From NCBI GenBank assembly GCA_945787105.1, contig CALZGZ010000107.1, forward strand, positions 1 to 46,054: 46,054 nt of DNA, given 5' to 3'. Position 1 is the stretch's first letter. Every line of letters begins with the position of its first letter. The stretch is from an uncultured Gammaproteobacteria bacterium. Its GTDB lineage: Bacteria; Pseudomonadota; Gammaproteobacteria; Arenicellales; JAANXG01. Below the pieces are notes generated by a model, which worked only from the letters and a program-made list of their open reading frames with translations, was not told where the DNA came from and did no database searches. A program made the position numbers and the translations under genes. Of the stretch, positions 38,013 to 40,259 are shown one piece after another.

Positions 38013-40259
38013 ATAATACGTAGACAAGCGATACCTTTGTTCACCGCTCTTGTAGTAACAATAACGGCACTTGCGCCAGCAAGCTCGGTCGCAGCGGGTG
38101 GTCTGGCAAAGTCAAATCAGTTCTGGTGGCCAGAACAGCTGAATCTGCAACCACTTCGCCAACATGCGGCCGAGTCCAATCCTTATGGCGATGATTTCGA
38201 CTATGTTGAGGCCTTCAAAGGTGTCGATCTCAATACCTTGAAACGGGATATCGAGACGGTGTTGAAGACGTCTCAAGACTGGTGGCCCGCAGACTATGGT
38301 CACTATGGGCCATTTATGATTCGAATGGCGTGGCACAGCGCAGGGACTTACCGAGTACACGATGGTCGAGGCGGCGCCGACGGCGGTCAACAACGGTTCG
38401 AGCCACTAAACAGCTGGCCAGACAATGCCAATCTGGACAAGGCGCGCCGATTGCTCTAACCAATAAAGCAAAAATACGGACGTAATGTCTCCTGGGCTGA
38501 CCTGATGATCCTGGCAGGTAATGTCGCGCTGGAGTCCATGGGTTTTGAAACCTACGGCTTCGCCGGCGGACGTGAAGACGACTGGGAGGCTGACCTGGTT
38601 TATTGGGGACCCGAGACCGAAATGCTCGCCAACAATAAGCGGTATGACAAAGACGGAAAACTCGAAAAACCACTAGCCGCCGTTCAGATGGGATTAATCT
38701 ATGTGAATCCGGAAGGGCCGAACGGCAATCACGACCCGATCTCTGCAGCGAAAGACATTCGTGGATCGTTTGGCCGCATGGCGATGAACGACGAAGAGAT
38801 CGTCGCACTCATCGCTGGCGGGCATACATTAGGCAAAGCCCATGGTGCCGCCAAGCCGGCAGATTGCGTGGGCCCGGAGCCCGCTGCTGCAGGCATTGAA
38901 GAACAAGGCTTCGGTTGGGTAAACAAGTGCGGTAGCGGTAATGGAGCCGACACTATCACCAGTGGTTTGGAAGGCGCCTGGACCTCCACGCCGACCGCAT
39001 GGTCGATGCTGTACCTCGATTTTCTTTTTAGATTCGAGTGGGAACAAACGAAAAGCCCCGCCGGTGCGGTGCAGTGGATTCCTAAGGATAAAAACGCTTC
39101 TAACCTCGTACCGGATGCCCACGACCCAGCCAAGCGACATGCCCCTATCATGTTCACGACGGACCTCGTGCTTAAGAGAGATCCAGGCTTTCGAGAGATT
39201 TCCGAGCGTTTTCTGAAAAATCCGAAAGAGTTTGACCTCGCGTTTGCGAAGGCCTGGTACAAACTCACCCACCGCGACATGGGCCCTCGCGCCCGCTACG
39301 TCGGCACCGAAGTGCCTGACGAGGAACTACCCTGGCAAGACCCCATCCCGGCCGTTGATCATGAGTTGATTGACGCCAAGGACATATTAAATCTGAAATC
39401 TAGGATACTTGAATCGGGTACGTCCATTCCTCAACTGGTCAGAACTGCCTGGGCGTCGGCCTCTACCTTCCGTGACTCCGACATGCGCGGTGGAGCGAAC
39501 GGAGCACGAATCCGACTCGCGCCCCAAAAGGATTGGGCAGTCAACAATCCGGATGAGCTGGCTAAGGTATTGAAGACGCTGGAAACCATTCAGGGAGAGT
39601 TCAATAAATCGGCGTCGGGTGGCAAGAAGGTTTCGCTAGCCGATGTGATTGTTCTTGGTGGCGCCGCCGCTATTGAAGAGGCGGCTAGAAAAGCCGGGCA
39701 CAGCGTTGAGGTTTCATTCACGCCGGGACGCATGGACGCCTCGCAAGAACAAACGGATGTCAACTCGTTTGCCGTGCTCGAACCGACCGCAGACGGTTTT
39801 CGCAACTACTTCGGTAACACTAACTACGACTCCCCTGCAGAGATGCTGGTGGAAAAGTCCGCGCTGTTGAATTTGACTGTGCCCGAAATGACAGTGCTGG
39901 TCGGCGGCATGCGAGCCCTGAATGCCAATGCTAGACAGGCTAAACACGGTGTGTTTACCGACCAGCCCGGCACGTTGGTCAATGATTTCTTCGTCAACCT
40001 GCTCGACATGTCGACGCAGTGGAAAATGTCTTCAGAGCTCGGCGTTTACGAGGGTTATGATCGCAGCACGGGTACGCTCAGATGGACAACCACTCCAGTT
40101 GACCTTATCTTCGGGTCAAACTCCGAGTTGCGAGCCGTTGCGGAAGTCTATGCCGCTAACGACGGTAAAGAGAAGTTCGTTAATGACTTTGTTGCTGCAT
40201 GGAGCAAGGTGATGACCCTCGACCGCTTCGACGCGGTTCAACACCGACGCGGAGGATAA
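38013..40259 (+). pseudogene. katG: Periplasmic catalase-peroxidase KatG, broken by a stop codon and lacking a normal start
   Basis: A full-length bifunctional catalase-peroxidase frame with two lesions. The ribosome site GAGGAG (38001-38006) is followed by ATA ATA CGT where ATG is expected; the encoded N-terminus (R-R-Q-A-I-P-L-F-T) would make a signal peptide. At 38457-38459, TAA replaces the tryptophan codon of the conserved L-L-W-P-I-K. The frame is otherwise intact: [11 protein letters not shown] with the distal triad, G-L-I-Y-V-N-P-E and the partner Met in G-R-M-A-M, and the proximal histidine in G-G-H-T-L-G-K. The C-terminal half-domain is complete. The lesions look recent. Sequencing error is an alternative for each. 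Confidence 0.85.

Follow-up and report, generated by a model that had tools for sequence, protein, structure and literature searches.

A likely very young catalase-peroxidase pseudogene beside a second, intact katG in an uncultured gammaproteobacterium

The window, the 46,054-nucleotide stretch of DNA analysed here, is contig 107 of the 388-contig draft of its source genome (G000; 4.80 Mb, completeness 97.4%, contamination 4.2%). It contains a gene for a catalase-peroxidase (katG) that has ATA at its start position and an in-frame TAA in place of an invariant tryptophan, whereas the remainder of the gene is conserved (Table 1). We consider it likely that this gene, which probably encoded a periplasmic catalase-peroxidase, is a real pseudogene of very recent origin, lost beside a second, intact katG on another contig of the same genome. 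The window gene is most likely a new example of a familiar kind, a catalase-peroxidase pseudogene that arose by ordinary gene loss.

Table 1. Coordinates of the katG locus and its neighbours in the window.
Feature	Position	Strand	Basis or remark
Cu/Zn superoxide dismutase	34644-35252		Neighbour of katG
525-residue gene with a lipoprotein-like leader	35901-37478		Neighbour of katG
Block upstream of katG	37665-37775	+	81% identity over 111 bases with the region upstream of the G008 katG
Shine-Dalgarno-like GAGGAG	38001-38006	+	Read directly; GGGAG equally distant from the start in L032
katG (catalase-peroxidase HPI), likely pseudogene	38016-40259	+	748 codons including ATA, inner stop and terminal stop
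katG start position, reads ATA	38016-38018	+	ATG in the nearest ortholog, L032
Signal-peptide-like leader with basic start and hydrophobic stretch	38016-38096	+	Translation; leaders of relatives
Distal active-site Arg, Trp and His in MIRMAWHS, intact	38322-38336	+	Motif; alignment to solved KatG chains
In-frame TAA, codon 148, replaces invariant Trp	38457-38459	+
Tyr of the Trp-Tyr-Met cross-link, in [10 protein letters not shown], intact	38700-38702	+	Motif; solved homologs
Met of the Trp-Tyr-Met cross-link, in GRMAMNDEE, intact	38778-38780	+	Motif; solved homologs
Proximal haem-ligand His in GGHTLGKAH, intact	38823-38825	+	Motif; solved homologs

Read through its one inner stop, the window gene matches the TIGR00198 profile with 1117.9 bits (cut-off 770.25) over positions 13-714 of 716, and the parts on either side of the stop match the profile contiguously (positions 13-129 and 131-714). 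The motifs with the distal Arg, Trp and His, the proximal His and the cross-link residues, whose roles we take to be those described in the KatG literature, were all found. In its full-length match, its catalytic motifs and its score above the TIGR00198 cut-off, the gene is like catalase-peroxidase HPI (TIGR00198/NF011635). It differs from that family in its ATA start position and the TAA at codon 148: a single uninterrupted frame with a usual start codon is lacking, and one protein is impossible under the ordinary code. The sequence-only reading had stated that the frame and all catalytic residues are kept on both sides of the stop, and the translation, the contiguous profile matches and the located motifs bear this out. 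The signal-peptide-like leader suggests that the encoded enzyme is, or was, probably periplasmic.

At the 5′ end, ATA ATA (38013-38018) is followed by a frame that is open to 38456. The second ATA aligns with the ATG of L032, the katG copy of genome G008 and the nearest intact homolog (86% identical), and in both genes this codon begins 9 bases after the GGAG core. The good ribosome site described from the letters can thus be read directly, and the loss of the start codon is confirmed against the L032 ATG, with the correction that the start is the second ATA and not the first. Among 78 other loci whose matches begin within the first 15 residues, ATG stands exactly at the start place in 45, the remaining codons being GTG (3), ATA (4) and others (26). 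Each of the four ATA loci (L005, L008, L041 and L109) has an ATG and/or GTG within 8 codons, which indicates a leader that is shifted rather than a start that is lost. Within the open frame of the window gene there is no ATG, GTG or TTG upstream of 38016, and the first such codon is the TTG at 38037.

The inner stop falls on a position at which the family had been said to have Trp, and Trp is indeed what we found in 110 of the 110 other aligned rows with a residue there, a few of which are mutually identical. The frame reopens after 38459 and runs to the terminal TAA at 40257-40259 with no frameshift anywhere in the gene. Relative to L032 the changed bases (38018, 38458 and 38459) are all G to A; since 38458 and 38459 both differ, the step from TGG to TAA comprises two changes, as proposed. 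Chance is not an issue for these lesions, which stand out against a conserved gene some 750 codons long. Recoding or an altered genetic code was rejected: TAA also terminates katG itself, and an inner stop was present in none of 78 family matches in the source genome.

Even with both lesions the gene might still be in use, provided that translation is initiated at AUA, which is a start codon of NCBI table 11, or at the TTG at 38037, and that the UAA is read through or the two parts of the protein reassociate. The intact ribosome site and the purifying selection, which is undiminished over the whole gene, codons before and after the stop being included, would agree with such use, but a recent loss explains the same selection pattern. 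Further points against it are the invariance of the Trp, the three family orthologs without such a stop, the first ATG after the stop (38505), which has no ribosome site evident by eye, and the separation of the distal from the proximal haem residues in a split protein. We regard continued use as very improbable. That the allele is real and yields the enzyme through AUA initiation and UAA suppression, the stop at the invariant Trp serving as an expression brake on a periplasmic peroxidase, appears more improbable still.

Two of the 110 other katG loci examined, from two other draft genomes, have one stop well inside the best-matching gene, namely L042 (TAG at a Trp, query residue 480) and L064 (TAA at a Glu, query residue 320). 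Like the window katG, both combine a single in-frame stop with an otherwise full gene, and in L042 it is also a Trp that is replaced; unlike in the window, the stops lie elsewhere and both loci have an ATG near the expected start. In addition, an extra katG copy upstream in L052 is split over two frames with a stop. Draft genomes therefore do contain broken or mis-assembled katG genes, rarely but often enough to be noticed. L052 and L053 each contain two katG matches side by side. The katG matches of G028, G033, G034, G039 and G043, for which one stop each was initially listed, do not share the window's stop: in G039 (L026) the translation has only the terminal stop within the gene, in G028 (L018) and G034 (L141) the stop lies at query residue 740, which is the gene end, and in G033 (L017) and G043 (L024) there is none within the match.

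Window-type katG is present in four of the 13 family genomes compared, the source included. It is broken in G000, while the orthologs of G008, G012 and G011, which share 86, 78 and 76% identity with the portion downstream of the stop, contain no inner stop. The comparison with close relatives that had been suggested from the sequence was thus run, and it returned three intact copies without the window's stop. An inactivating lesion in one copy and intact orthologs in related genomes are the pattern by which a pseudogene is recognised. In the five other genus members compared, whose completeness is 74-97%, no match exceeded 67% identity, and in the DNA around the three intact copies (flanks of about 4 to 11 kb) the surroundings of the window gene are not shared beyond the katG unit. 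The block upstream of katG (Table 1) is common to the window and, among the three intact copies, to the G008 katG alone; the sequence between block and gene has diverged, and the block is possibly a regulatory region.

The second katG of the source genome (C37:10697-12862) is a 751-codon open frame without a stop that scores 1230 bits. In the tree it belongs to the other main branch, which is made up of cytoplasmic-looking members. The region around this gene is 98.6% identical to genome G005, a member of the same genus, over 4433 bases. G005 also matches the window at 34998-37590 (G005:C79; 98.9% and then 95.5% identity, 95-99%, the gap at 37016-37126 aside), and this match ends at 37590, just upstream of katG, without continuing into the gene. 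At another pair of loci, which are perhaps not orthologous, G000 and G005 are 82.5% identical. Recent exchange, close kinship or bin mixing are conceivable sources of this identity pattern. The unshared flanks and the end of the G005 match just before katG would fit a patchily distributed gene that has moved or been rearranged.

Of the two neighbouring genes in Table 1, the 525-residue gene was without a hit when Pfam, NCBIfam and PHROGs were searched at the chosen thresholds. Relatives of it, whether full or partial, occur in seven of the 13 genomes searched (G000 and G003-G008), the G005 copies being broken. Downstream of katG, the genes encode a membrane protein whose QmoC match is below threshold, the beta subunit of an APS reductase, an alpha-like flavoprotein and a ferrochelatase. 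The source genome contains two AprA-like genes (G000:C245 and window 42035-43879) with a mutual identity of 52%. Short dispersed repeats of the window (6710-6969, 8665-9000, 28546-28855, 31179-31292 and 45805-46053) match several sampled G000 contigs at ~70-97% identity and possibly represent a family of small mobile or palindromic elements.

To what extent the gene has decayed can be read from its branch in a protein tree of 113 rows, in which it groups with L032 (SH-aLRT 100). At 0.098, the window branch does not exceed the length of the L032 branch (0.11). A codon model of 10 of the 113 rows, run without alignment columns 1 to 6 and the column of the stop so as to exclude the lesions, gave an omega of 0.108 for the window branch and 0.117 for the background (p = 0.70). 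When a neutral terminal part of the branch was allowed, its best-fit fraction was 0, and f = 0.05 costs 1.94 log units; a relaxed phase would take up at most about 5% of the branch, or roughly 0.012 neutral changes for each base. Where a column is conserved to 97% or more across the 90 rows of the periplasmic-type clade, departures were counted: 4 in the window gene, likewise 4 in the intact L032 and 2 in the median row. The four departures of the window gene include the start codon, a column that is ATG by construction in the other rows, as their starts were set by script to the nearest ATG wherever one was present; the start count over 78 loci given above is an independent check. Tree and conservation counts omit duplicates (L002, L112, L113 and L140) and fragments (L029, L030 and L031), and L114, one of their rows, duplicates part of the window gene.

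Because the relaxed fraction is small, the gene has no frameshift and its omega is that of a working gene, inactivation, if any, is very recent. The sequence-only reading had proposed either that inactivation was very recent or that the gene is a population or assembly variant, and the working-gene omega, the lack of a frameshift and the three intact family orthologs agree with that pair of options. That no relaxed selection was detected is equally expected had the gene never been lost.

At about 0.012 changes per base, about 0.9 nonsense changes are expected in the gene, so that one stop is unsurprising. With L032 as a proxy for the unbroken gene, the chance of losing the start is about 0.027 and that of a second hit turning a first stop into TAA about 0.003. 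A start loss together with a two-base stop is accordingly improbable under independent neutral hits in so young a pseudogene, and linkage of the events, a double change in tandem, an ATA start that had been leaky beforehand and a sequence error are all possible. Of the claim of two independent lesions, the presence of both stands; their independence is not required, since the changes are all G to A and independent hits are improbable.

One form of linkage would be a single mutational burst, in which strand-biased C-to-T changes on the template strand (deamination or photodamage) take the place of independent decay. It would account for three changed bases that are all G to A on the coding strand, two of them adjacent, and for the improbability of independent hits within the allowed time. 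However, the window branch outside the lesions has no excess of G to A (13, versus 19 C to T), changes from Trp to stop and from ATG to ATA are necessarily G to A, and three changes are too few for a test; we hold such a burst to be very unlikely. Hypermutation from G to A throughout the gene, or damage like that of ancient DNA, was likewise rejected, as the polarised spectrum gives it no support.

A sequence error would mean that the katG of the dominant genome in the sample is intact and that wrong or minority bases entered the contig at 38018 and 38458-38459, through a consensus, assembly or strain-mixture artefact. Selection on the remaining gene is that of a working gene, the short relaxed time leaves little room for three changes and G000 is a fragmented draft, all of which would suit an artefact; the identity of 98.6-98.9% to G005 in two stretches versus 82.5% at the perhaps non-orthologous pair of loci also makes mixing of strains or bins conceivable. 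On the other hand, inner stops are found in none of 14 AMP-binding (E up to 1e-15) and none of 64 ABC (E up to 1e-10) matches of G000, which makes a gross assembly error unlikely, and the spectrum outside the lesions shows no G-to-A excess here either. The typical consensus error is unlike substitutions at two separate places, two of them adjacent, without an indel, and the lesion pattern is in this respect atypical. On balance we think an artefact unlikely, if clearly worth keeping in mind. A codon-usage scan for in-frame stops, covering 20 sampled G000 stretches (267,702 bases) and the window, found none at the first threshold and 51 open-frame pairs at a lower one, and missed the katG stop itself. 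Other broken genes in G000 are possible, a question on which only the 78 family matches bear.

The likely course, loss of a real gene, can be pictured as follows. The lineage would once have had a working window-type katG, perhaps acquired horizontally, beside the cytoplasmic-looking second katG. With the second copy intact, loss could be tolerable, and the changes of the start to ATA and of the invariant Trp codon to TAA would have been retained. Little or no translation would start from ATA, and whatever did would terminate once 147 codons had been read; the truncated product would include the distal half of the active site but lack the proximal haem ligand. With start, length and ligand so affected, no working enzyme would be expected.

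Comparable cases are recorded for Salmonella: in the counts reported there, 346 of 378 pseudogenes carry one lesion and 32 more than one, the majority appear young, their divergence being accelerated little or not at all, and in one single-lesion case ATG has become ATA (PMC2916853). Like the young pseudogenes described in those counts, the window gene has its lesions in one genome among those compared and shows no accelerated divergence, and premature stops as well as the ATG-to-ATA start change are both recorded in that set; unlike most of its members, the window gene has two lesions, and its stop is two bases away from the Trp codon (PMC2916853). Two lesions per pseudogene are thus known but uncommon. 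A search of the literature for katG pseudogenes or premature stops in catalase-peroxidase returned nothing beyond tuberculosis indels.

A single unverified allele of a draft genome is no basis for claiming recoding or a lost peroxide defence. Loss of katG is discussed under the Black Queen Hypothesis; as a second katG remains in this genome, dependence on neighbours need not be invoked. If the bases are true, the window would offer a snapshot of gene loss near its onset, in which a redundant peroxidase was inactivated before other decay became visible.
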